Of a stretch of 40,666 nucleotides of DNA, positions 4,180-19,079 are shown piece after piece (position 1 is the stretch's first letter; each line of letters opens with the position of its first letter). Location: the NCBI GenBank assembly GCA_002839805.1, contig PGYT01000021.1, forward strand, positions 1 through 40,666. Direction: 5' to 3'. The notes under the pieces are model-generated. The model did no database searches and had not been told where the DNA came from. It worked only from the letters and a program-made list of their open reading frames with translations. Made by a program: the position numbers and the translations under genes. Source of the stretch: Ignavibacteriae bacterium HGW-Ignavibacteriae-2 (GTDB lineage: Bacteria > Bacteroidota > Ignavibacteria > Ignavibacteriales > Melioribacteraceae).

Positions 4180-4623
4180 CTATTTTTTAAACTTAAAATC
4201 GTGCTTTTTCAAATTTTCCTTAGCTTTATCAATTGAAACTTCTTTTAGTTTCATTTCACATAAGGGGCATTTTCCCGCTTCGTCGGAAATAACATTCCAG
4301 CACATCTGATCCTGATATACCTTTCCGTCTTTATTTTTATCGATAGAAACTAAATCAATTTCACCTTTTCTAACTATGGATGCGGATTCATCATTTTCGT
4401 GATTATTTTTTTCTGACATTTCGGTATGTTTATGCCCCTCTTTAGACTCACCGCAGCAGGAGCATTCTTTTTTATCACTTTTTTTATCTGACTTTTTATG
4501 TTTCATCTCTTTCATGTGATGATGTTTGGTGGAATCCTGTTTTTCCTGAGCCGATAAATTTCCAGCCAATAGAAATCCGGTAAATAATAAAGCTGTTAAT
4601 AGGATTTTTGATATATTTTTCAT
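4180..4623 (-). CDS. Small periplasmic heavy-metal-binding protein
   Basis: A 147-residue protein with a signal peptide (about residues 1-25, cleavage near NLSAQ). A low-complexity His/Lys/Met stretch follows (KHHHMKEMKHKK, 33-44), then a cysteine cluster CSCC (54-57), and a C-terminal module of about 60 residues. That module joins an EF-hand-like loop DKNKDGKVYQD (95-105) to CPLCEMKL (119-126), a variant of the heavy-metal-binding domain of CusB proteins. The same module ends the CusB-type adaptor of this operon (about two thirds identical by eye). The gene has a strong AAGGAG ribosome site and lies 29 bases after the pump gene, last in the operon. A role as a periplasmic Cu/Ag chaperone or buffer feeding the pump is inferred. 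The EF-hand loop lacks the usual acidic residue at position 12. Confidence 0.85.
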   Translation of the reverse strand: MKNISKILLTALLFTGFLLAGNLSAQEKQDSTKHHHMKEMKHKKSDKKSDKKECSCCGESKEGHKHTEMSEKNNHENDESASIVRKGEIDLVSIDKNKDGKVYQDQMCWNVISDEAGKCPLCEMKLKEVSIDKAKENLKKHDFKFKK

Positions 4624-4652: not shown

Positions 4653-7600
4653 TTAGTTAGTTTTATTGAGTACTTGTTTCATTTCTCTTTTTTTAATCGA
4701 ATAATATATTGCCGGATACACCGTAAGTTCCATAATCATGCTTGTTAAAATACCGCCTACCATTGGAGCGGCTATTCTTTTCATTACATCAGATCCTGCG
4801 CCCATTCCAATAAGGATTGGAAGAAGCCCGAGCATTGTGGTCATTACTGTCATCATTTTAGGTCTAATTCTTTTGACCGCACCTTCAAATATGGCCTCTC
4901 GCAAATCGGTTAATGAATTTAATAATCCTTTCTTTTTATATTTTTCATATGCGAGATCCAGGTAAAGAAGCATTATAACCCCTGTTTCCGCATCTACACC
5001 AAGCAAGGCTATAATGCCCACCCAAACCGCAACGCTCATATTATAACCGGCAAGATACAAAAACCAAATCGCGCCGACCATAGAAAATGGAAGCGCAAGC
5101 AGAACAATACCGGTTTTTACCATAGATTTTGTATTCATATACAAAAGAACAATTACAATAAGTAATGTTAAAGGTATAACCATCGACAAATGTTGGGACG
5201 CTCTTTCCATATATTCGTACTGTCCCGACCACTTTAACGAATATCCGGCTGGCATTTTAATATTTTCGGATACAGCAATTTTCGCCTTATCCACAAATGA
5301 TCCTACATCGGTTCCAGGCGTAAGGTCAACGAAGACCCAAGTATTTGGTCGGGCATTCTCCGATTTTATCATCGGAGGCCCTTTTTTAATTTCTATTTTT
5401 CCCAATTGCTCCAAAGGCATACTTCCACCGTTCGGAAGTGGAACTAAAACTCTTTTAATTGATTCTATATTATCCCTATAATCACGCATATACCTTAAAT
5501 TTACAGGGTACCTTTCCAGTCCTTCAACTGTTTTGGTTATATTCATTCCACCCACAGCCGACATAAAGACATCCTGCACATCAGCAATGGTTAAACCATA
5601 ACGAGCAATCGCGTCTCTATCGATAGTATAATCGAGATAATTTCCGCCAACTGATCTTTCGGCATATGCCGATCTTGTGCCTTTAATTTGTTTTGCAACT
5701 TCCTCAACTTCTTTTCCCAGTTTTTGCAACACATTTAAATCAGGTCCGGCAATCTTAATTCCTACGGGTGTTTTAATGCCTGTAGAGAGCATATCGATAC
5801 GTGTTTTAATCGGCATTGTCCAAGCGTTCGTTAGACCGGGTATTTGTATAGCGTTGTTCATTTCTTCAACAAGTTTATCCGGTGTCATACCGGGGCGCCA
5901 TTGATCTTCAGGCTTAAGTTGAATAGTTGTTTCAATCATAGTTAACGGCGCCGGATCAGTTGCAGTTTCAGCTCTTCCAATTTTTCCCATAACCGATTTA
6001 ACTTCAGGAAATGTTTTAATTATTTTATCGGTTTGTTGTAAAAGTTCACGCGCTTTTGTAACTGATATTCCGGGTAATGTAGTGGGCATATATAACAAAT
6101 CACCCTCGTATAAAGGCGGCATAAATTCAGAACCGAGTTTTGAATATGGGATCAATGTTGCCAGCACTATAATTACAGCTGCGCCAATCACCCACCATCT
6201 TTTATTCATCACAAAATCAACTATGGGATGATAAATTTTTACAAGTATTTTTGTTAATGGGTTTTCGTCTTCTTTTTTCATTTTACCACGGACAAAAAGA
6301 CCAAGCAAGACCGGTACTATTGTTACAGCAAGTATTGCTGCTGCCCCCATGGCATAAGTTTTAGTGAAAGCCAGCGGTCTAAAAAGCCTGCCTTCCTGCT
6401 GTTCAAGAGTAAATACGGGAATAAAAGAAATTGTTATTACAAGTAACGAATAGAAAATTGATGGTCCTACTTCTTTAGCTGACTCCACAATAATACGCCA
6501 ATGCTCTCTCTGTTTATCCTTCGGTCTATCCCCCTCTTCTGACAAATGTTTATGAGCGTTTTCTACAAGTACTATTGAAGCATCTACCATCGCTCCTATT
6601 GCTATAGCTATACCGCCAAGGGACATTATATTAGCGTTAATTCCCTGAAATTTCATAATTAAAAACGAAACAAGTACGGCAGTCGGTAAAGTAAAAATTG
6701 CGACGAATGAACTCCTAAAATGAAGTAGGAATGCAATAATTACAATTGCGACGATTAACGTCTCCTCTAGTATTTTTCCTTTCAAATTATCAATTGCTTT
6801 AATAATTAGTCCAGATCTGTCGTAACCCTCAAGAATCTGAACATCTTCAGGCAGAGACTTCTTTAATTGCTCCAATCTTTCTTTTACAAGTTCAATTACG
6901 GACAAAGCGTTTTCACCATACCTGATAATCACAATCCCGCCAACAACCTCACCTTCACCATTCCAATCTGCTATACCTCTTCGTAATTCCGGCCCAAGCT
7001 GAACATCTGCTACATCTCTTAAATAAACAGGCGTACCAGTGTTTGGAGAAACACCAATTGATATCTTTTTAATATCATCCAAATTTTTTATATATCCCAA
7101 TCCGCGAACCATAAATTCCATTTCACCAATTTCAAGTAGTCTACCACCCACATCGTTATTGCTTTGTTTAATTGCCATCTTAACTTTTTGTAAAGGAATA
7201 TTGTACGATGCAAGTTTATTGGGATCGAGGTTAACTTGATATTGTTTTACAAATCCGCCTATGCTGGCAACTTCGGCTACTCCGGGCAGAGCAGTTAATT
7301 CATATTTTAAAAAATAATCCTGTATTGACCTAAGCTCTTGTAAGTTCTTTGAGTCGGATTTAAGAACGTACTGGTAAACCCATCCCAATCCCGTAGCATC
7401 GGGACCTAATTGTGGATTTACACCTTCTGGAAGATTACCGCGTAAACTGGAAAGATATTCTAGTACCCGGCTGCGCGCCCAATATATATCGGTACCATCT
7501 TCAAAAATAATATACACCATCGAATATCCGAACATTGAATAACCGCGAACATCTTTTGCGTAAGGAACAGAAAGCATTTTTGTAGTTAGCGGATACGTTA

Positions 7601-7823
7601 CCTGATCCTCAACTATTCGTGGACCCTGACCGGGGTATTCAGTCATAATAATTACCTGAACGTCACTTAAGTCAGGTATCGCGTCAATTTTAGTATTGTA
7701 AACCGCCCAGATTCCACTAACAATTAGTGCAATGGTAAATAATATTACTAAAAATTTATTGTTAACCGACCATTCTATTAACCTTGCAATTAAACCATCT
7801 TGCTCTTTATCGTTAAAATTCAT
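4653..7823 (-). CDS. cusA: CusA-type Cu(I)/Ag(I) RND efflux pump
   Basis: A 1056-residue HME-RND inner-membrane proton antiporter that drives metal export through the CusB and TolC-type partners. It has a short N-terminal cytosolic segment, TM1 at about residues 23-42, two large periplasmic loops and two blocks of transmembrane helices (about 350-510 and 885-1045). The TM4 motif GIAIAIGAMVDASIVLVENAHKH is the CusA type rather than the CzcA DFG type. All three methionines that bind Cu(I)/Ag(I) in E. coli CusA have counterparts: M579 (LLYMPTT), M629 (PLTMIETT) and M678 (RIDMLSTG). This supports a monovalent copper/silver substrate over zinc/cobalt/nickel. GGGG before the ATG gives a good ribosome site; the gap to the adaptor gene is 15 bases. 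Confidence 0.95.
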   Translation of the reverse strand: MNFNDKEQDGLIARLIEWSVNNKFLVILFTIALIVSGIWAVYNTKIDAIPDLSDVQVIIMTEYPGQGPRIVEDQVTYPLTTKMLSVPYAKDVRGYSMFGYSMVYIIFEDGTDIYWARSRVLEYLSSLRGNLPEGVNPQLGPDATGLGWVYQYVLKSDSKNLQELRSIQDYFLKYELTALPGVAEVASIGGFVKQYQVNLDPNKLASYNIPLQKVKMAIKQSNNDVGGRLLEIGEMEFMVRGLGYIKNLDDIKKISIGVSPNTGTPVYLRDVADVQLGPELRRGIADWNGEGEVVGGIVIIRYGENALSVIELVKERLEQLKKSLPEDVQILEGYDRSGLIIKAIDNLKGKILEETLIVAIVIIAFLLHFRSSFVAIFTLPTAVLVSFLIMKFQGINANIMSLGGIAIAIGAMVDASIVLVENAHKHLSEEGDRPKDKQREHWRIIVESAKEVGPSIFYSLLVITISFIPVFTLEQQEGRLFRPLAFTKTYAMGAAAILAVTIVPVLLGLFVRGKMKKEDENPLTKILVKIYHPIVDFVMNKRWWVIGAAVIIVLATLIPYSKLGSEFMPPLYEGDLLYMPTTLPGISVTKARELLQQTDKIIKTFPEVKSVMGKIGRAETATDPAPLTMIETTIQLKPEDQWRPGMTPDKLVEEMNNAIQIPGLTNAWTMPIKTRIDMLSTGIKTPVGIKIAGPDLNVLQKLGKEVEEVAKQIKGTRSAYAERSVGGNYLDYTIDRDAIARYGLTIADVQDVFMSAVGGMNITKTVEGLERYPVNLRYMRDYRDNIESIKRVLVPLPNGGSMPLEQLGKIEIKKGPPMIKSENARPNTWVFVDLTPGTDVGSFVDKAKIAVSENIKMPAGYSLKWSGQYEYMERASQHLSMVIPLTLLIVIVLLYMNTKSMVKTGIVLLALPFSMVGAIWFLYLAGYNMSVAVWVGIIALLGVDAETGVIMLLYLDLAYEKYKKKGLLNSLTDLREAIFEGAVKRIRPKMMTVMTTMLGLLPILIGMGAGSDVMKRIAAPMVGGILTSMIMELTVYPAIYYSIKKREMKQVLNKTN

Positions 7824-7838
7824 GATATCCCCGGATTT

Positions 7839-9530
7839 TTAATTGGCTTTAAAGCCGTTTTCCAATAAATTTTTCTTTGCTTCATCTAAAGTAACTTCCT
7901 TTAACTTCATTTCGCATAAAGGACATCTTCCCGCTTCATCCGAAATTACATTCCAATCCATAGGATCCTGAAAAACTTTACCATCTTTATTAATATCTAA
8001 AGCTTTCAAATCAATTAAACCTTCTCTTACAATTGATTGGGGTTCTACAATATTTTTTGAATCACTTAATTCCTTTTTTGATTCTTGTTTGGAGTGGTCG
8101 TGTATCTCATCAGTTTTAGTTTCTTTTGTTGAGATACTGAATTTATTATTTTCTGCATTGTCCTTTGTATTAAAATTGTCCCGTGATTCTGTAAACTGAC
8201 TAACTGCCGCTTTTAGATTACTCTCCGAATCGATTAAGAACTGCGCAGAAGTTACAATTTTTATTCCTTCGCTCAATCCCTCGAGTACCTGATAATATCC
8301 ATCAGAATAATCGCCAAGTGTTACATTTTGCGGCTTAAATTTTCCTTGACCGAGCGAAATAATTACTATATCTTTTCTGCCGCTCCTAATTACTGCGTTT
8401 TCGGGCACAACTAAAGTTTTTCCCAAATCCCTGCCTTTAATTGTAACGCTGGCAAGCATTGATGGTTTAAATAAATTATTAGTATTATTTATGTTTATCC
8501 TTATTTTCGCAGTTCTTGTTTTAGCATCAAGAGTGGGATAAATAAAATCGACTTTACCGTTGAATATTTTTCCGGGCAGAAAATTAAATCTTATTTCAGC
8601 CTGCGCACCAATAATAACTTTTGAAAGTTCGTATTCATAAATATCAGCTGTTAGCCACAAAGAATTTAAATTTGAAAACTGAATAAGCGGCATTCCCGGC
8701 ATAACTTTTTGTCCCTCCAAAATATTTTTGGAGATAACCGTACCGCTTTTTGGCGCGTATAATGTAATATATGTTTTCACTTCTTTCTGTGACTGCAGTA
8801 ATTGTATATCGGTCTCAGACATTTCGAGAAGTTGAAGCTTTCGAACTGAATTTTTCACTAATTGATCACCGCTCTTCAGTATATCTTTAATATCAGTATT
8901 ACCTGTGGTTGTTTGATATGATAATGCGGTTAGTAATTCCTGCTGTGCAGTAACAAGTTCTGGTGAATAAATTTCCATAAGTTTATCGCCGGACTTAACT
9001 TTCTGACCGATATAATTTATATACAATTTATTTACCCATCCATTTACTCTTGTTGTTACAATATAATCTTCAATTTCGTTTGTGGTTAATATTCCATTAG
9101 TAACTATTACATTTGATAATCTTTTACTCATTACAGGTTCAGTTTTTACATTCATATTCTGAACCACAACCGGGTCTATTGAAATTACTCCCTCGCTAGC
9201 TGTTTCATCACTATATACAGGTATATAATCCATGCCCATTTCATCTTTTCTTGGATAATCCGAAATTATATTAGGGTCCATAGGTGAACGGTAAAACAGT
9301 ATTTTTCTTTCCTCTTTATTCCCGTTTTTTATGGGTGTTAATTTCATTTCGCAAATAGGACAGTTGCCCGGCTCATCCGAAATAATTTCCGGATGCATTC
9401 CACATGAGTACAACTGTTTTTCGGTTGATGAGGATTGCTCTACAGGAGTCGGGTTAAAAAATAGGAAATAACCCCCAGCAATTAAACCAAAGGCAATAAT
9501 TATCAGAATTATTATATTTTTACTTTTCAT
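7839..9530 (-). CDS. cusB: CusB-type periplasmic adaptor with three metal-binding modules
   Basis: A 563-residue membrane fusion protein linking the RND pump to the outer-membrane channel. An N-terminal anchor or signal helix (about residues 4-25) is followed by a first heavy-metal-binding domain (YSCGMHP...CPICEMKL, 41-64) and a second degenerate one without the CxxC (YRSPMDP...MGMDYIPVY, 80-106). Then come the barrel-sandwich, alpha-hairpin and beta-barrel parts of the adaptor (about 130-440) and a Lys/Glu/Ser-rich linker. A C-terminal module (about 500-563) has the EF-hand-like DINKDGKVFQD and CPLCEMKL. The C-terminal extension makes it longer than E. coli CusB (about 400 residues) and copies the module of the last operon gene. 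GGAG precedes the start; 17 bases separate it from the TolC-type gene. Confidence 0.93.
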   Translation of the reverse strand: MKSKNIIILIIIAFGLIAGGYFLFFNPTPVEQSSSTEKQLYSCGMHPEIISDEPGNCPICEMKLTPIKNGNKEERKILFYRSPMDPNIISDYPRKDEMGMDYIPVYSDETASEGVISIDPVVVQNMNVKTEPVMSKRLSNVIVTNGILTTNEIEDYIVTTRVNGWVNKLYINYIGQKVKSGDKLMEIYSPELVTAQQELLTALSYQTTTGNTDIKDILKSGDQLVKNSVRKLQLLEMSETDIQLLQSQKEVKTYITLYAPKSGTVISKNILEGQKVMPGMPLIQFSNLNSLWLTADIYEYELSKVIIGAQAEIRFNFLPGKIFNGKVDFIYPTLDAKTRTAKIRININNTNNLFKPSMLASVTIKGRDLGKTLVVPENAVIRSGRKDIVIISLGQGKFKPQNVTLGDYSDGYYQVLEGLSEGIKIVTSAQFLIDSESNLKAAVSQFTESRDNFNTKDNAENNKFSISTKETKTDEIHDHSKQESKKELSDSKNIVEPQSIVREGLIDLKALDINKDGKVFQDPMDWNVISDEAGRCPLCEMKLKEVTLDEAKKNLLENGFKAN

Positions 9531-9547: not shown

Positions 9548-10822
9548 TTAATAATTGTTTTTTCTTTCGCCAGTAAGAAATTCCAGCTGAGATAATTCTT
9601 TGAAGTACATTGTTCGAATGTTGTATAGTGTAGTCTCAATTTCGTAAAGTTTATTTTGAGCGTCCAAAACATTTATAAAATCTATATCGCCAACTTGGTA
9701 GCTGGTAAGTGAAATGTTTAATGACTGTTCAGCCTGCGGTAATAAACCCTCGGTAATTAATTTTTCGCGTTCTTTTAAGGATTGTAGATTGTTAATTGCC
9801 ACACCGAAATTTTTGTTCAGCATTTGTAGCGCGCTCTCGTACTGATCAGCATACATTTTCTGCATCAGCCGGCTTTCTTCAACTTTTGCGGATTTTTTTC
9901 CACCGTAATCGATAGGCAAATTTATTCCCACCATAAATGAAAGGAAATCGTTCGCTGGCATATTGGAGTTTTTTAATTGATCTCTTTGGGTATATTGAAT
10001 GGAAAAATTAAAGTTTGGATAAAAATCATATTCGGCTAAATGCTCCATTAGTTTTGATTTTTCTTCCGCAAGTCTTAATCCTTTAAGAAAGGGTCTGTTT
10101 AATTTTGATGTTTCGTTAAGCGTATTAAAGGTAATATTTTCTTCAGGTATTTCCGGAACAACTGAAGTTGAAATATTTTCATCAATATTTCTAAGCATGT
10201 AATTATTTAAACCGGCAACATTTGATTTTTCTTTCCCTCTCAAATCTGCAAGTTTATCTTTTATTCTCGTCAACTCCAGTTCTATTTGAATTAAATTTTG
10301 CTGACTCGCTTTTGATACGGAGTATTTAATTCGCACTACTTCGGCAATTTTTTCAAGTATTGTTTTGTTTTCTTCAGCAATTCTTATTGATTCCCTGATA
10401 AATCGTAAATCATAATACATTTTGCTTATGTCGTTAACAATTTCGTTGGTTGCGTCGTCAATTTCCTGCTGATTTATCCCAACATCCTTGCTTTGAACAT
10501 CCACGGCAGCGCTTAATTTGCCCGGGAAAGGTACAGATTGACTAATTCCCAGTATTTTACCAGACATAGGCTCTTCATCAAACTCAAACGAGTTTATCGG
10601 CAGACTCATAAGACCGAATGTTAACATCGGATCGGAAAGATTAGAAACTTGGGCTATTTTTGATTCAGAAATATTTTGTTTGTAACGCAATGCCCGCAGT
10701 TTTGGACTGACGTCTATCGATTTCGTTATTATTTTGTTTAATACCGAATCAATCACCTGCGAATTTATATTTAAACTGCTGAGTATTAACAGGAGTAAGA
10801 TCAGTACGGAATTTTTTTTCAT
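9548..10822 (-). CDS. TolC/CusC-type outer-membrane efflux protein
   Basis: The outer-membrane channel of the tripartite pump, about 424 residues. The chosen start reads MKKNSVLILLLLILSSLNINSQ, a clear signal peptide, with AAAGGA 7 bases upstream. An in-frame ATG six codons earlier (10840) has no ribosome site and overlaps the preceding small gene, so it is less likely. The mature protein has long alpha-helical heptad-like stretches and two outer-membrane efflux repeats (about residues 30-215 and 235-420), with SVPFPGKL and GINLPIDYGGKKSAKVEE as typical turns of this family. The ribosome site overlaps the stop codon of the upstream 34-residue gene, suggesting translational coupling. Confidence 0.92.
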   Translation of the reverse strand: MKKNSVLILLLLILSSLNINSQVIDSVLNKIITKSIDVSPKLRALRYKQNISESKIAQVSNLSDPMLTFGLMSLPINSFEFDEEPMSGKILGISQSVPFPGKLSAAVDVQSKDVGINQQEIDDATNEIVNDISKMYYDLRFIRESIRIAEENKTILEKIAEVVRIKYSVSKASQQNLIQIELELTRIKDKLADLRGKEKSNVAGLNNYMLRNIDENISTSVVPEIPEENITFNTLNETSKLNRPFLKGLRLAEEKSKLMEHLAEYDFYPNFNFSIQYTQRDQLKNSNMPANDFLSFMVGINLPIDYGGKKSAKVEESRLMQKMYADQYESALQMLNKNFGVAINNLQSLKEREKLITEGLLPQAEQSLNISLTSYQVGDIDFINVLDAQNKLYEIETTLYNIRTMYFKELSQLEFLTGERKNNY

Positions 10823-10832
10823 AAACAATCCT

Positions 10833-10937
10833 TTAATCATTTTTTTTCTTTTGAACCTTATTAAATAATATTATTGTAATCGCCGTTATAATTATATAAA
10901 TGACAAAATAAATTATATGTAATGTAGAATCATTCAT
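10833..10937 (-). CDS. 34-residue single-span membrane peptide, first gene of the efflux operon
   Basis: Too short for routine gene calling. It reads MNDSTLHIIYFVIYIIITA, continues ITIILFNKVQKKKND, then stops with TAA. One hydrophobic helix (about residues 6-26) is followed by a Lys-rich tail, predicting N-out/C-in insertion in the inner membrane. Support comes from a strong AGGAG placed 5 bases before the ATG, the absence of space for another leader, and overlap of its stop with the ribosome site of the TolC-type gene (start 10 bases later). Possible roles are a small subunit or stabiliser of the pump, or a coupling leader. I do not recognise the family. Confidence 0.65.
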   Translation of the reverse strand: MNDSTLHIIYFVIYIIITAITIILFNKVQKKKND

Positions 10938-10958: not shown

Positions 10959-10973
10959 CCAAACTACATGCCA
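10959..10973 (-). promoter_or_regulatory. Candidate sigma-54 promoter of the efflux operon
   Basis: On the minus strand TGGCATGTAGTTTGG fits the -24/-12 pattern TGGCAYG-N4-TTGC except that the last C of the -12 element is G, a weakness at a normally invariant base. The predicted start would be near 10947, which leaves only a 10-base leader beginning at the AGGAG of the small membrane gene. A TATAAT follows at once (10957-10952) without a recognisable -35, so an activator-dependent sigma-70-type promoter is the alternative. The sigma-54 activator encoded next door favours the first reading. Confidence 0.45.
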
Positions 10974-11022: not shown

Positions 11023-11049
11023 TTTTAAATATTTTAAATATTTTAAAAG
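11023..11049. repeat. Three 9-bp AT-rich direct repeats upstream of the efflux promoter
   Basis: TTTTAAATA occurs at 11023 and 11032 and as TTTTAAAAG at 11041. The block lies about 75-100 bases upstream of the predicted efflux-operon start, the distance at which sigma-54 activators usually bind, and it has partial dyad symmetry. It could equally be plain AT-rich sequence. The rest of the 10974-11297 gap holds only an imperfect inverted repeat (ACGACA near 11230 with TGTCGT near 11261) and no gene that I can support. Confidence 0.3.
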
Positions 11050-11297: not shown

Positions 11298-11368
11298 GCA
11301 TAACTTACACTGTACGCGCAGGCTGCAATAACATGCCCGCCATTTTGGTCGCCTGCTATGTGTTATCT
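11298..11368 (-). other. attC-like imperfect palindrome at the 3' end of the DHFR-like gene
   Basis: In the direction of the adjacent gene the element begins AGATAAC (11368-11362) and ends GTTATGC (11304-11298), inverted outer boxes resembling R'' and R' of integron attC sites. GTTATGC differs from GTTRRRY at one position. Inner boxes GCAGGC (11356-11351) and GCCTGC (11324-11319) are also inverted. The 71-base length is in the attC range, and the gene's stop codon lies inside the element, as is usual for cassettes. No integron integrase is in the window. The fold and the boxes are read directly; calling it a recombination site is an inference. Confidence 0.45.
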
Positions 11369-12012
11369 GTTTTATTTAAAATTAAATGCATTGCCTTATC
11401 ACTTGAAATATGTTTAATACACTTATATCCCAATGATGTGAGATCCAAATTCGAATAAAGATTTTCACCACTCCCTAAAATTATCGGCGATACAACTAAA
11501 TGTAATTCATCTATTAATTTAGCCTTAAGATATTGACGAATCGTATTAACACCTCCGCCAAGTCTTACATCTTTGCCATTTGCTGAATCAAATGCTTTTT
11601 CAAGAGCTGCATTAATCCCATCCGTTACAAAGTGAAAAGTGGTACCACCTTCCATCTCAATAGATTCACGCTTATGATGAGTTAAGATAAAGACAGGAAC
11701 ATGATATGGCGGGTTTTCTCCCCACCATCCTTTCCAATTAACATTAGGTTCGCCACGATATGGACTAAACATATTTCGACCTAAAATCCAGGCGCCAATA
11801 TTTTTAAAGCCATTTTCGGCAAATTCATTATCAACTCCTGATGTGCCTTCACTCTTTCCTAATACCTTTTGTTGAAAAGTTTTTGTGGGGAAAAACCATT
11901 GGTGAAGTTCTCCACCACGGACCCCTAAAGGATTCTCCAAGTTTTGAAGTGGTCCTGCGCCAAATCCATCAACTGATATTGTAAAACTTTCAACACGTAA
12001 TTTTTGCATCAT
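11356..12012 (-). CDS. RibD C-terminal/DHFR-like reductase (YyaP-type)
   Basis: A 218-residue cytoplasmic protein of the dihydrofolate reductase-like RibD_C family, expected to use NADPH; the physiological substrate is unknown. Features are FTISVDGFGAGP near the N terminus, ILGRNMF (about 96-102), the glycine-rich nucleotide-binding stretch DVRLGGGVNTIRQYL (about 147-161) and DELHLVVSPIILGSGENLY (about 168-186). AAAGGA precedes the ATG. The gene starts 14 bases after the stop of the sigma-54 activator gene and ends inside an attC-like palindrome. The junction with the activator gene contains GTTAGGT, so the gene may be an inserted cassette rather than a true functional partner of the two-component pair. 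Confidence 0.85.
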   Translation of the reverse strand: MMQKLRVESFTISVDGFGAGPLQNLENPLGVRGGELHQWFFPTKTFQQKVLGKSEGTSGVDNEFAENGFKNIGAWILGRNMFSPYRGEPNVNWKGWWGENPPYHVPVFILTHHKRESIEMEGGTTFHFVTDGINAALEKAFDSANGKDVRLGGGVNTIRQYLKAKLIDELHLVVSPIILGSGENLYSNLDLTSLGYKCIKHISSDKAMHLILNKTDNT

Positions 12013-12026
12013 TAAGTCCTTTCAAT

Positions 12027-13376
12027 TTAGTTAACACCTAACTTGTAATTATCAATTTTGCTGTACAAAGTTGGTAATGAAATACCAAGTATTTTTGCGG
12101 CTTTTGGCTTATCCCAATTTACTCCTTTCAGTACCCGTTCGATATGGATTTTTTCGATATCGTTAAGTGAGTAGTTTAAATAATTATCGAATTCATAAGG
12201 GTGTGATTCAACTTTGGGAAGTAAAATGTTTTCCTTCTCAAGCACATCACCTTTGGATAAAACTACCCCCTGCATAAGTGCGTTTTCCAATTCACGTACA
12301 TTTCCAATCCATTCGTGTTTTTCTAAAATATTTATTACATCATCCGGGATTTTCGAAACCGACTTATGCAGCTCTTTATTAATTTTATTAAGGAAATGAT
12401 AAACCAGAGGTTGAATATCATCGCGTCTGTCTCTTAAAGGCGGAAGATTTACAGAAACTACATTTAATCTGTAATAAAGGTCTTCCCTAAATTTTCCATC
12501 ATTCACCAATTTTACAAGATTTTTATTTGTAGCAGCGATTATACGAGCTTCCATTTTAATCATTGATTCGCCGCCTACTCTTTCAAATTCTTTTTCCTGC
12601 AAAACTCTCAATAATTTTATTTGCAGATTTGAGGAGATTTCCGAAATTTCATCGAGAAAAATAGTTCCGTCCCCTGCCAATTCAAATTTGCCCTTCTTAT
12701 CTTTAATTGATCCAGTAAACGCCCCTTTTACATGACCGAAAAGTTCGCTTTCCAACAATGTTTCGGTTAAAGCCGTACAATTGACAGGTATAAATGGTGA
12801 ATTTTTTGTAATTCCACTGTAATGAATTGCTCTGGCCACCAATTCTTTTCCCGTTCCGCTTTCACCCTGCAGCAAAACCGTAACTCTGTTGGATGATACC
12901 TGACCAATTTTTTTGTAGATATCTTTCATTACAGTGGTTTTGCCAATAATTACATTTTTTAACTCATACGATTCCGCGTTGCTTCCAACAATGGCGTCAA
13001 GTTTATCGCTGAGTGTTTTATTTTCAAGAGCACGTTTAATTGTCAATTTCAGTTTTTCAATTTCCAGCGGTTTTTCAATAAAATCGTAAGCTCCCTGCTG
13101 CATTGCTTCAATAGTTGTTTGCATATCGTCGAAAGCAGTGATAATTATAAAATGAATGTTTGGGTCAAGTTGTTTTGTTTTTTTCAGTACCTCAATACCT
13201 GTAAATCCGGGCATCCGATAGTCACTAATCACAAGATCCGGTAATAAATTTGAAATTAGTTCCCATCCTTTTACCCCGTCTTCTGCTGAATAAACATCAA
13301 ATTTTTGCCTTTTAAGATAGTTTGACAAAGTTTCACGGATTGATTGATCATCGTCAATTACAACAATTTTTTCCAT
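12027..13376 (-). CDS. Sigma-54-dependent response regulator (NtrC/ZraR type)
   Basis: A 449-residue activator with a receiver domain (about 1-118, phosphorylated D52 in LVISDYRMPG), an AAA+ domain (about 145-380) and a Fis-type helix-turn-helix (about 412-445, KPKAAKILGISLPTLYSKI). GESGTGKE is Walker A and GTIFLDEI is Walker B. The sigma-54 contact loop reads GAFTGS instead of GAFTGA, a conservative change. It is co-transcribed with the histidine kinase (8-base gap). ZraSR/HydHG systems of this architecture respond to metals, and the copper/silver efflux operon follows downstream with a sigma-54-like promoter, so it is the probable target. The last codons (AAG TTA GGT GTT AAC TAA) contain a GTTRRRY motif, so the native C terminus may have been altered by an insertion. 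Confidence 0.93.
   Translation of the reverse strand: MEKIVVIDDDQSIRETLSNYLKRQKFDVYSAEDGVKGWELISNLLPDLVISDYRMPGFTGIEVLKKTKQLDPNIHFIIITAFDDMQTTIEAMQQGAYDFIEKPLEIEKLKLTIKRALENKTLSDKLDAIVGSNAESYELKNVIIGKTTVMKDIYKKIGQVSSNRVTVLLQGESGTGKELVARAIHYSGITKNSPFIPVNCTALTETLLESELFGHVKGAFTGSIKDKKGKFELAGDGTIFLDEISEISSNLQIKLLRVLQEKEFERVGGESMIKMEARIIAATNKNLVKLVNDGKFREDLYYRLNVVSVNLPPLRDRRDDIQPLVYHFLNKINKELHKSVSKIPDDVINILEKHEWIGNVRELENALMQGVVLSKGDVLEKENILLPKVESHPYEFDNYLNYSLNDIEKIHIERVLKGVNWDKPKAAKILGISLPTLYSKIDNYKLGVN
12036..12042 (-). other. GTTAGGT motif at the junction of activator and DHFR-like genes
   Basis: The minus-strand heptamer GTTAGGT matches the integron core site GTTRRRY fully and lies in the last codons of the sigma-54 activator gene. 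Together with GTTATGC at 11304-11298 it brackets a segment of about 738 bases holding only the DHFR-like gene. Joining the two halves after removal would leave the activator frame ending in AAG TTA TGC ACC GTC TGT TAA. A chance match of a 7-base degenerate motif is possible. Confidence 0.3.
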
Positions 13377-13384
13377 TTTTTTCT

Positions 13385-15487
13385 CTACTCCAAAGGGAGA
13401 TAAATTTCGAATATTGTTTTTCCTAAATCTGAAGCTTTAAGAGTAATTCTACCCCTGTGCTGTTCAATAATTTTTTGAACTACCGCTAATCCTAATCCTG
13501 TTCCCGATGATTTGGTTGTATAAAATGGTTCGAATATTTTTTCATGTAAATCATACGGAATCCCGTTACCATCATCTGTAAATCTAAGTATAAGATTTTT
13601 TAATTCAGTTTTTGATTCAATTGTTAAAAGACCGTTTTCTTTTGCAGATTCAAATGAATTTTCAATAATATTCAGGAATACCTGAAATAATTTTTCCCTA
13701 TCGGCCAAAATTTTTTGATTACCGACATTAACATTTATGTTAAATCTCTTATCTACAAACTGAAGTTCTGTCTGAGCTAACAAATCATAGAAAAGATCTT
13801 TTATGTCGAACCATTTTTTATCCAATTCCACCTGCCGCGCAAATTGTAATACTTGTTTAACAAGGTTGTTAAGACGGTTAATTTCCTTGTTAATTATTCC
13901 CATCGAGTACTTGTCCTCATCTGTTAGATCGATACTTTCGGCTAAAATATCAGAGTTCATTTTAATAGAAGTAAGAGGAGTTTTAATTTCATGGGCAAGA
14001 ACTGCCGCCATTTTCCCTAGTGCTGCCAACTTTTCGGATTTAGCAAGCTGATTTTCTAAAATTTTAATATGTGTTATATCCACCGCAATTAATAAATTGC
14101 CTGCTGCCTGGTCCGTGTCGAAATAAAATGGTGATATTGTTAATAATAAAAATTTTGCACCATTTCCTGTCGATATTTTTACTTCTTCTTCGAAATTAAC
14201 CGATCCATTATATTTAGCAAGGGATGTGGATAATTCGTTTAGTGAATTTTCATGTTTAGTAATTTCATAAATATTATTTTTTAATAATTTTTCTTTGCTG
14301 CTTTTATACAAAAAAGCAAACTGAGTGTTGAGTTCCAATATATTTCCCAATACATCGAATGCACAAATTGATGCGTTCGATTTTTCAAATGCGTTGATTA
14401 GTAGTGAAATTCTATGCTGCTTTTCTTTCAACTCAAAGGTATCCTTTCTTAAAGTATCCGACATTTCATTAAAAGTTTCGGCTAGTAAACCTATTTCATC
14501 ATTCGAATTAATATCCACCTTTAACCCATAATTACCTTTTTGAATTTGCGAAGTAATTTCTGTCAACTTATTAATTGGATTGGCGATTATCCTTGAAATA
14601 ATAAAAGCCATAACTCCAGCTACAAGAATCCCGCCGGCAATGCTTATAATAAAATATTTTTGCCACTCTTCGCTGGTTTGTATATCAAAGAGAATTCTTC
14701 CTAAAGGGATTTGAATAAGCAGTATAACTACAGGAACAACTATTAGCGCCGCAAAAAATAATTTTTTATTTAATGAGAATGTTTGAATTTTGGAGACCGC
14801 TGCAGGGAACATATTAAATTTTGATATCGCAACTGTGGTCGTAAGAATAGCTCCGATAAAAAATGCGAGCGGGCTGATTTCAACCAAATAATAGAATCCG
14901 AGTATCCATGGCAGATATAATCCAAAAACAAAAGCCGTTATGTTTGTAACAATTAATCCTAATAATATTGTAAGCATTTGTGTTTTATATTCTTTAAAAT
15001 CCGGCGATACAATTTTTTTTGTAAGAAGATAAATACTTAAACAGAGTAGAATTATATACCAAATCAAATAAATTGAATAATAACTGCTGTAATGTGCCTC
15101 AAAATGATGTTGATGCGCGTGTGATTCCTCAATTAGATAACCAAGCCAGATTGCGGCCAAAATTATTATCGAAGGAATAAGAAGAAATAATTTTAATCCT
15201 AAACCCATCTGTTTCTTATTGGGATAATAGTATGTGAAGAAAGTTAAGACAAGTATTATTAATAATAAAAAAGAATGGCAGGATTGGTCCAATATAGTTA
15301 CATCACCCATCTGCATGAAAACAAAATGAACCGCGTGTGAGACCAGGTATCCTATAATCAGCGCAAGAGCAAGTATATAAAGTTTCCTATCTATTCCCCT
15401 TATGCTTCGGGAATAAATAATAAAAATTAATCCTATAGCGGAGATAATTGTAGCGGCGAGAAAAATAATGTTAAATACTGGTATCAT
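13385..15487 (-). CDS. Membrane sensor histidine kinase with His-rich loop
   Basis: A 700-residue kinase with about 7-8 N-terminal transmembrane segments (1-235), a further pair (about 245-265 and 283-303), HAMP (about 300-350), a PAS domain (about 365-480), HisKA (LAHEIKTPLTSIKMN, about 500) and an HATPase domain (N-box NIIENSFESA, G boxes DDGNGI and GTGLGL). The loop after the fourth N-terminal hydrophobic segment reads SHAHQHHFEAH (122-132), five histidines that could bind metal outside the membrane. H51, H54, C70 and H71 lie near other helix ends. It phosphorylates the adjacent sigma-54 activator. Sensing of copper, silver or another metal is inferred from the loop and from the efflux operon downstream. 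Confidence 0.92.
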   Translation of the reverse strand: MIPVFNIIFLAATIISAIGLIFIIYSRSIRGIDRKLYILALALIIGYLVSHAVHFVFMQMGDVTILDQSCHSFLLLIILVLTFFTYYYPNKKQMGLGLKLFLLIPSIIILAAIWLGYLIEESHAHQHHFEAHYSSYYSIYLIWYIILLCLSIYLLTKKIVSPDFKEYKTQMLTILLGLIVTNITAFVFGLYLPWILGFYYLVEISPLAFFIGAILTTTVAISKFNMFPAAVSKIQTFSLNKKLFFAALIVVPVVILLIQIPLGRILFDIQTSEEWQKYFIISIAGGILVAGVMAFIISRIIANPINKLTEITSQIQKGNYGLKVDINSNDEIGLLAETFNEMSDTLRKDTFELKEKQHRISLLINAFEKSNASICAFDVLGNILELNTQFAFLYKSSKEKLLKNNIYEITKHENSLNELSTSLAKYNGSVNFEEEVKISTGNGAKFLLLTISPFYFDTDQAAGNLLIAVDITHIKILENQLAKSEKLAALGKMAAVLAHEIKTPLTSIKMNSDILAESIDLTDEDKYSMGIINKEINRLNNLVKQVLQFARQVELDKKWFDIKDLFYDLLAQTELQFVDKRFNINVNVGNQKILADREKLFQVFLNIIENSFESAKENGLLTIESKTELKNLILRFTDDGNGIPYDLHEKIFEPFYTTKSSGTGLGLAVVQKIIEQHRGRITLKASDLGKTIFEIYLPLE

Positions 15488-18893: not shown

Positions 18894-19079
18894 ATGACAA
18901 AGTTTTTATTATGGATAATTGTATTGATCTTTTGTTGGCCCCTGGCGATTATCGCATTGATAATCTATCCTTTGGTATGGTTGATTCTTCTCCCATTCCG
19001 AATTCTCGGAATCGCGGTGGATGGTATACTTGATTTAATAACGGCGATAATTAAACTTCCCTCAAAAATAATTAGTTAA
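18894..19079 (+). CDS. Small hydrophobic membrane protein
   Basis: A 61-residue protein, hydrophobic almost throughout: one or two helices at about residues 4-38 (LLWIIVLIFCWPLAIIALI, then PLVWLILLPF), then an amphipathic C-terminal helix ending KLPSKIIS. AGAGG precedes the ATG by about 6 bases, which supports translation. It is the only plus-strand gene in this part of the window and converges on the GH9 fusion gene, whose stop lies 30 bases away. I do not recognise a function; small proteins of this kind are common and poorly characterised. Confidence 0.65.
   Translation: MTKFLLWIIVLIFCWPLAIIALIIYPLVWLILLPFRILGIAVDGILDLITAIIKLPSKIIS

Follow-up and report, generated by a model that had tools for sequence, protein, structure and literature searches.

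A conserved gene for a predicted one-helix membrane peptide opens metal-efflux operons of Ignavibacteria and co-occurs with a sensor kinase/NtrC pair

A 34-codon open reading frame stands at the head of a metal-efflux operon in the window, by which we mean the whole 40,666-nucleotide stretch of DNA analyzed (contig PGYT01000021.1 of Ignavibacteriae bacterium HGW-Ignavibacteriae-2). Is this frame a gene, and does its product belong with the pump or with the regulators encoded upstream? The frame (10937..10833, minus strand) starts with ATG and encodes MNDSTLHIIYFVIYIIITAITIILFNKVQKKKND. A strong Shine-Dalgarno sequence, AGGAG, is located 5 nt before the ATG. The product has a single hydrophobic stretch (17-residue Kyte-Doolittle maximum of 2.89), predicted to form one helix, and a Lys-rich tail. 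The stop codon TAA lies within TAAAGGA, which is probably where ribosomes bind for the following gene, that of an outer-membrane factor of OEP/TolC type. The Shine-Dalgarno sequence, the single helix, the Lys-rich tail and the overlap of the stop codon with the ribosome site had been described in the initial annotation and were found as stated. The likely ATG of the OEP gene is at 10822; a mechanically called 430-aa OEP frame starts at an in-frame upstream ATG at 10840, inside the peptide frame.

The genes that follow on the minus strand encode the outer-membrane factor (9548..10822; Pfam OEP, 1.1e-39), a CusB-type adaptor with heavy-metal-binding domains (7839..9530; HlyD_D23, HMBD), a CusA-type RND transporter with the motif AIGAMVDASIVLVENAH (4653..7823; ACR_tran) and a small heavy-metal-binding-domain protein (4180..4623; HMBD, 3.8e-08). 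From the motif AIGAMVDASIVLVENAH we take this transporter to be of the Cu/Ag type. Upstream of the peptide, also on the minus strand, are genes of an NtrC-type sigma-54 response regulator (12027..13376; Sigma54_activat, Response_reg, HTH_8) and of a sensor histidine kinase with a multi-helix N-terminal sensor domain (13385..15487; HATPase_c, HisKA, HAMP). A sigma-54-type −24/−12 box, TGGCATGTAGTTTGG, is present at 10959..10973 (minus strand) and ends 21 nt before the start codon of the peptide. The box, the activator and the kinase beyond it had been overlooked in the initial annotation. A reductase-like gene (RibD_C, 11356-12012, same strand) lies between the activator gene and the box; the distance from activator to box is below 1 kb in most relatives, and longer also in loci L061 and L066. 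A further short hydrophobic frame, of 61 aa, is found in the window at 18894-19079 (plus strand).

A search with the OEP protein gave a match in 49 of 97 relatives, and DNA upstream of 30 loci was read. A one-helix frame of 31-38 aa was found before 14 of the 15 best OEP loci (L021-L035, the exception being L025) and before none of the other 15 loci read (L036-L050). Second OEP copies, such as those at L059, L074 and L075, also lack the peptide frame. The peptide was further found before OEPs of a more distant type (26-29% identity) and before a second type of pump with the gene order CusA-OEP-CusB. The family precedes two pump types, OEP-CusB-CusA and CusA-OEP-CusB, which differ in CusA motif: AIGAMVDASIVLVENAH in the first type, to which the window belongs, and LAVGVIVDSSIVLVENAYRN or close variants in the second. 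An alignment of the family contains 31 distinct sequences of 31-61 aa with a single invariant Tyr; in 18 of them a Trp is located four residues N-terminal of this Tyr. The start codon is GTG at L070, L237, L238, L245 and L190. The peptide and the 160 nt upstream of it are identical at L027, L028 and L029 (genomes G058, G012 and G016), which represent three genera and point to the operon having recently been transferred horizontally.

Eight pairs of closely related sequences gave a pooled pN of 0.14 versus a pS of 0.44 (Fisher p 3e-17), and changes at codon positions 1, 2 and 3 numbered 54, 29 and 99; one pair, L242/L243, showed no constraint (0.87). To estimate chance, look-alike frames were loosely defined by an ATG start, 28-62 aa, a single hydrophobic stretch, a basic tail and a stop near the next gene. 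Among 147 control genes whose upstream gap measures at least about 150 nt, such frames were detected before five, two of which sit in operons of the peptide family, in another frame or place. In all 31 operons carrying the peptide, and in genome G336, its gene lies 5′ of the pump genes and is codirectional with them. The original proposal of a real small gene is borne out: the frame is kept in relatives and is under purifying selection, and the loss of conservation or frameshifts that would have spoken against it did not occur. On this comparative evidence the 34-residue frame is almost certainly a true gene, of a size that gene finders may readily miss, and its product an inner-membrane protein with one helix. 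As judged by sequence, the family is conserved at the head of metal-efflux operons in the class Ignavibacteria.

The box in the window reached a score of 8.5 out of 10, with a shuffle P of about 0.003 (the score is that of the best box within 110 nt, and shuffles were handled likewise). Every one of the 31 operons has a sigma-54-type box upstream of the peptide; the boxes end 13-47 nt from the start codon and have a shuffle P of at most 0.033 each, and the −12 half is degenerate in six (L067, L069, L093, L191, L192, L194). A candidate activator-binding inverted repeat, TTTAAAATATTTAAAATATTTAAAA, is located at 11023..11047 (minus strand), its center 62 nt from the box. Of 30 testable operons, 23 have such a repeat upstream versus 8.7 expected, a count that is weaker as a test because the sequences are related and AT-rich; 12 of the 23 are centered 67-70 nt from the box, and the window repeat by itself has a shuffle P of 0.24. 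By sequence, the locus carries both a −24/−12 element and an NtrC-type activator gene, as a sigma-54-dependent operon should. With the activator gene nearby, the case for a sigma-54 promoter is strong but unproven. The peptide was found at 27 of 28 loci with this activator within 2 kb before a pump gene, three of which (L062-L064) are near-copies; set against the five look-alikes among 147 control genes, this is more than chance would give. The exception, L060 (G005:C9), has a box and no peptide; box-like sites with a degenerate −12 half and no peptide were also seen at L193 (G053:C53) and L244 (G056).

The sensor domain of the kinase was cleanly present or absent among the 97 relatives: it was detected in 36, the genome of the window included, with a weakest E of 6e-85. 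The peptide was found in 30 of the 36 kinase-positive genomes versus 0 of 16 kinase-negative genomes tested (profile A6, E<1e-6), counts that lean on a profile to which most of the positive genomes had contributed. Two surveys of the class drew 391 genomes each, and the listed genomes agree; they yielded the peptide (E<1e-6) in 31 and the kinase in 36, and all 31 are within the 36. The peptide survey of the class was less sensitive than that of the 97 relatives because scoring was limited to 19 first-look candidates in each genome. G336 is the sole held-out positive and has the order kinase-activator-box-peptide-CusA. A match at 3.7e-4 in a 32nd genome of the class survey, G400, was dropped; its 8-kb stretch contains no kinase, activator or pump. 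Of the kinase-negative genomes with an OEP homolog, 23 were tested (15 plus 8) and all lacked the peptide (best profile E 0.0038), their kinase status resting on kinase searches and on the lack of a match in the class kinase survey. In one kinase-negative genome, G115, the peptide is absent though CusA is 77% identical. The co-occurrence of the peptide with one sensor-kinase/NtrC pair is thus shown at the level of gene content.

Kinase-positive genomes without a peptide match are G028, G062, G077, G040, G056 and G088 among the 97 relatives, and G326 in the class surveys. Because six of the 97 relatives are of this kind, the kinase may not need the peptide. The activator is not followed by a pump at L234-L236 and L279; a pump gene comes 4.0 kb after it in G056 and 3.1 kb after it in G088, and the G040 locus ends at a contig end. 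On the reverse strand of G088 (L241, 8162-8386) a sigma-54-like box precedes a 59-aa one-helix frame with a TTG start (8207-8386), which stands before cusA; the frame is possibly a divergent family member missed by the profile, is unconfirmed and was left out of the counts. Each positive genome has a single peptide match at E<1e-6. The peptide remains with the pump where the kinase and activator are 14-16 kb away (G035, G091, G093) and where they are about 124 kb away or on another contig (G010, G064, G086).

The kinase sensor domain is predicted to be a helix bundle (mean pLDDT 67.8), and a fold search with this model gave no matches at E<=0.001. His51, His54, Cys70 and His71 are invariant in nine aligned sequences and are plausible candidate metal ligands. 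At L237, L238, L245 and L280 the kinase frames are 588-633 residues long versus about 700 and align in two pieces, for which reason a middle segment seems to be missing there.

Two genomes record an exchange of the pump. In G017, the box and the peptide are intact and are followed by a decayed OEP of the window type (tblastn E 2.6e-12, internal stops), behind which lies a different OEP-CusB-CusA set. In G003, a peptide of the second pump type is followed by MIEKIIEWSAHNRFIVILI, a cut-off start of a second-type CusA (L237: MIEKIIDWSANNRFIVILI), and then by the same kind of foreign pump set as in G017. In neither genome do kinase and activator share their nearest relatives with CusA. The G003 peptide sides with the kinase and activator; that of G017 is nearest to L063, which is also near in kinase and activator, and then to L184 and L185. 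In Mantel tests on 23 operons, peptide similarity correlated with that of NtrC at 0.73, of the kinase at 0.66 and of CusA at 0.47, the last being weaker yet significant. Partial correlations were 0.71 for peptide and NtrC given CusA, and 0.40 for peptide and CusA given NtrC. Physical linkage alone, the peptide gene lying between activator and pump, could make the peptide follow the activator.

Taken together, the peptide appears to be part of the metal-sensing control circuit no less than of the pump. The reading that we prefer, with a probability of about 45%, is that it is a sigma-54-induced, trans-acting inner-membrane regulator on the kinase side, similar to MgrB. The multi-helix kinase would sense metal stress and phosphorylate the NtrC-type activator, which would bind the upstream repeat and start sigma-54 transcription. 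The peptide, as the first product, would insert with its N-terminus out and its C-terminus and basic tail inside, and would work in trans within the membrane. Its conserved W-x3-Y face would most likely dock on the sensor kinase and set kinase gain by feedback, as MgrB does on PhoQ. That it mimics a helix of the kinase (LIWY region) is speculation from sequence. Docking on the kinase would explain the co-inheritance of the peptide with kinase and activator and its tolerance of a change of pump. The single strong match per positive genome favors action in trans: G005 has two sigma-54-type pump operons, the second without a peptide, and a single peptide for two operons is as expected of a trans-acting product. 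The kinase is somewhat more likely as the target than the pump; the choice between them is the weakest step of this scheme and is unproven.

By analogy, the peptide may work like MgrB or UgtS, or like AcrZ or WatS. UgtS, a regulator of PhoQ, is 34 residues long, the same length as the window peptide. MgrB (47 aa) also regulates PhoQ (excerpts of PMC10576120). Both are small membrane proteins acting on a two-component kinase, and the peptide gene may likewise be under the control of the activator paired with the kinase (box, activator nearby, repeat upstream); the kinase is a different one, the action of the peptide on it is putative, and the likeness is one of description. AcrZ (49 aa) is a partner of AcrB in E. 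coli and is co-regulated with an RND pump (excerpts of PMC7267776). The peptide resembles it, by layout, as a small one-helix inner-membrane protein tied to an RND pump, the pump genes following it behind one sigma-54-type box in the operons read. It differs in that its pump is of the metal (HME) type, the operon is of the sigma-54 type and it tracks the regulator more than the pump. The initial annotation had raised AcrZ as a comparison in idea with no visible similarity, and indeed no AcrZ family was among the Pfam or NCBIfam matches of the peptides and no AcrZ chain among the matches of a PDB profile search (best E 0.047, nothing usable). WatS1-4 of Methylomonas, about 50 aa each and encoded among five smORFs (watS1-5), accompany the WatABO pump (excerpts of PMC10355033). 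Like the peptide they are small and have one helix, and their induction accompanies that of an RND pump, as is presumed for the peptide; WatS is under LysR-type control, and the comparison is by description, not sequence.

It is possible, if somewhat less likely, that the peptide is instead a modulator of the AcrZ or WatS kind, whose helix would pack on the transmembrane part of CusA, tune its activity or substrate range and tolerate several HME-RND pumps (for tripartite pumps, see the excerpted review PMC8277102). Its constant place 5′ of pump genes, its staying by the pump where the kinase is apart, the correlation with CusA that persists after partialling out NtrC and the precedents of small proteins co-regulated with RND pumps (excerpts of PMC7267776 and PMC10355033) argue for this. 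Its absence from all 23 kinase-negative genomes with an OEP homolog argues against it, as do CusAs that share at least 93% identity and yet follow peptides of plainly distinct lineages (L190, L073, L191/L192; the L073 CusA is incomplete, cut at a contig end). These 23 genomes, G115 among them, speak against an obligate partner of the pump, as do G003 and G017, where the pump was swapped while peptide, box and regulator stayed. Of the initial proposal of an RND pump subunit at the head of a Cu/Ag operon, the conserved small gene opening a Cu/Ag-type RND operon is supported and the subunit role is conjectural.

A cis-acting leader is unlikely. Translation of the peptide would then couple or time translation of the pump, by opening the ribosome site or by CutF-like sensing of the nascent chain, with the product itself secondary. 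The first position in the operon and the overlap of its stop codon with the next ribosome site fit such a role, and CutF-type leader proteins for copper precede metal genes (excerpts of PMC9973294). Genes for leaders of the CutF/CruR/CzcI kind (DUF2946), like the peptide gene, immediately precede genes of metal homeostasis or RND genes; the leaders are described with a Cys copper motif, mostly a Sec signal and a Pro-rich end. CxxxC was found in 0 of 31 peptides, and 27 of the 31 have fewer than two Pro, with 3-4 in the long-tailed L239, L240, L242 and L243, too few for a Pro-rich terminus. The peptide is constrained at the residue level and has an invariant Tyr. The window mRNA stretch showed no structure beyond shuffles and folds less than they do (z +1.6), and the distance to the OEP start differs among operons, between overlap and about 30 nt, reaching about 83-99 nt to the next start at L240 and L239. 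That the frame is a chance one without function, as its shortness, AT-richness and hydrophobicity and the five similar control frames might suggest, is refuted for practical purposes by a family that is conserved, under selection and fixed in position.

Searches with single peptides and with a first phylum profile gave mostly noise, and only matches adjoining a pump held up; a match in G022:C32 was dropped, as it is antisense within what is presumably an RNA-polymerase gene. The peptides had no credible match in Pfam (best ASC, E 0.001, in 4 of 31 members) or, for the three scanned, in NCBIfam. In Calditrichota, KSB1, Neomarinimicrobiota and others, a two-helix protein of roughly 95-140 aa (ILFFPV...C...WW.S) precedes OEP (L116, L120, L121, L123, L128, L130, L134, L135, L137, L142, L144, L148, L150), in 11 of 13 cases behind a loosely matched sigma-54-like site; seven that were scanned had no credible Pfam or NCBIfam match. 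Homology to the peptide is not supported, profile comparison giving a probability of 3%; these proteins resemble it by place only. Before peptide-less OEPs at L036, L038, L040, L041, L046 and L047 we observed a Cys-rich, exported-looking frame of roughly 150 aa (at about 900-1390), most products ending in a PP...SFL-like tail. It is a candidate CutF-like copper leader; four scanned (L036, L038, L040, L046) had no Pfam match at 0.01.

Among the matches listed from the open PubMed Central literature, we found no description of the peptide gene. With it, heavy-metal RND operons gain a conserved small membrane protein of a kind that the papers found do not describe. Pump exchanges in nature help to distinguish belonging to a pump from belonging to its regulator, which a single genome cannot do, and the peptide offers a clear case in which to test what directs a small membrane protein to a transporter or to a sensor kinase as its target. 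Tentatively, this previously undescribed family of 31-61-aa one-helix peptides, locked to sigma-54 metal-stress promoters in Ignavibacteria, could be a pump-independent rheostat of a metal-sensing kinase that has been kept through pump exchange.
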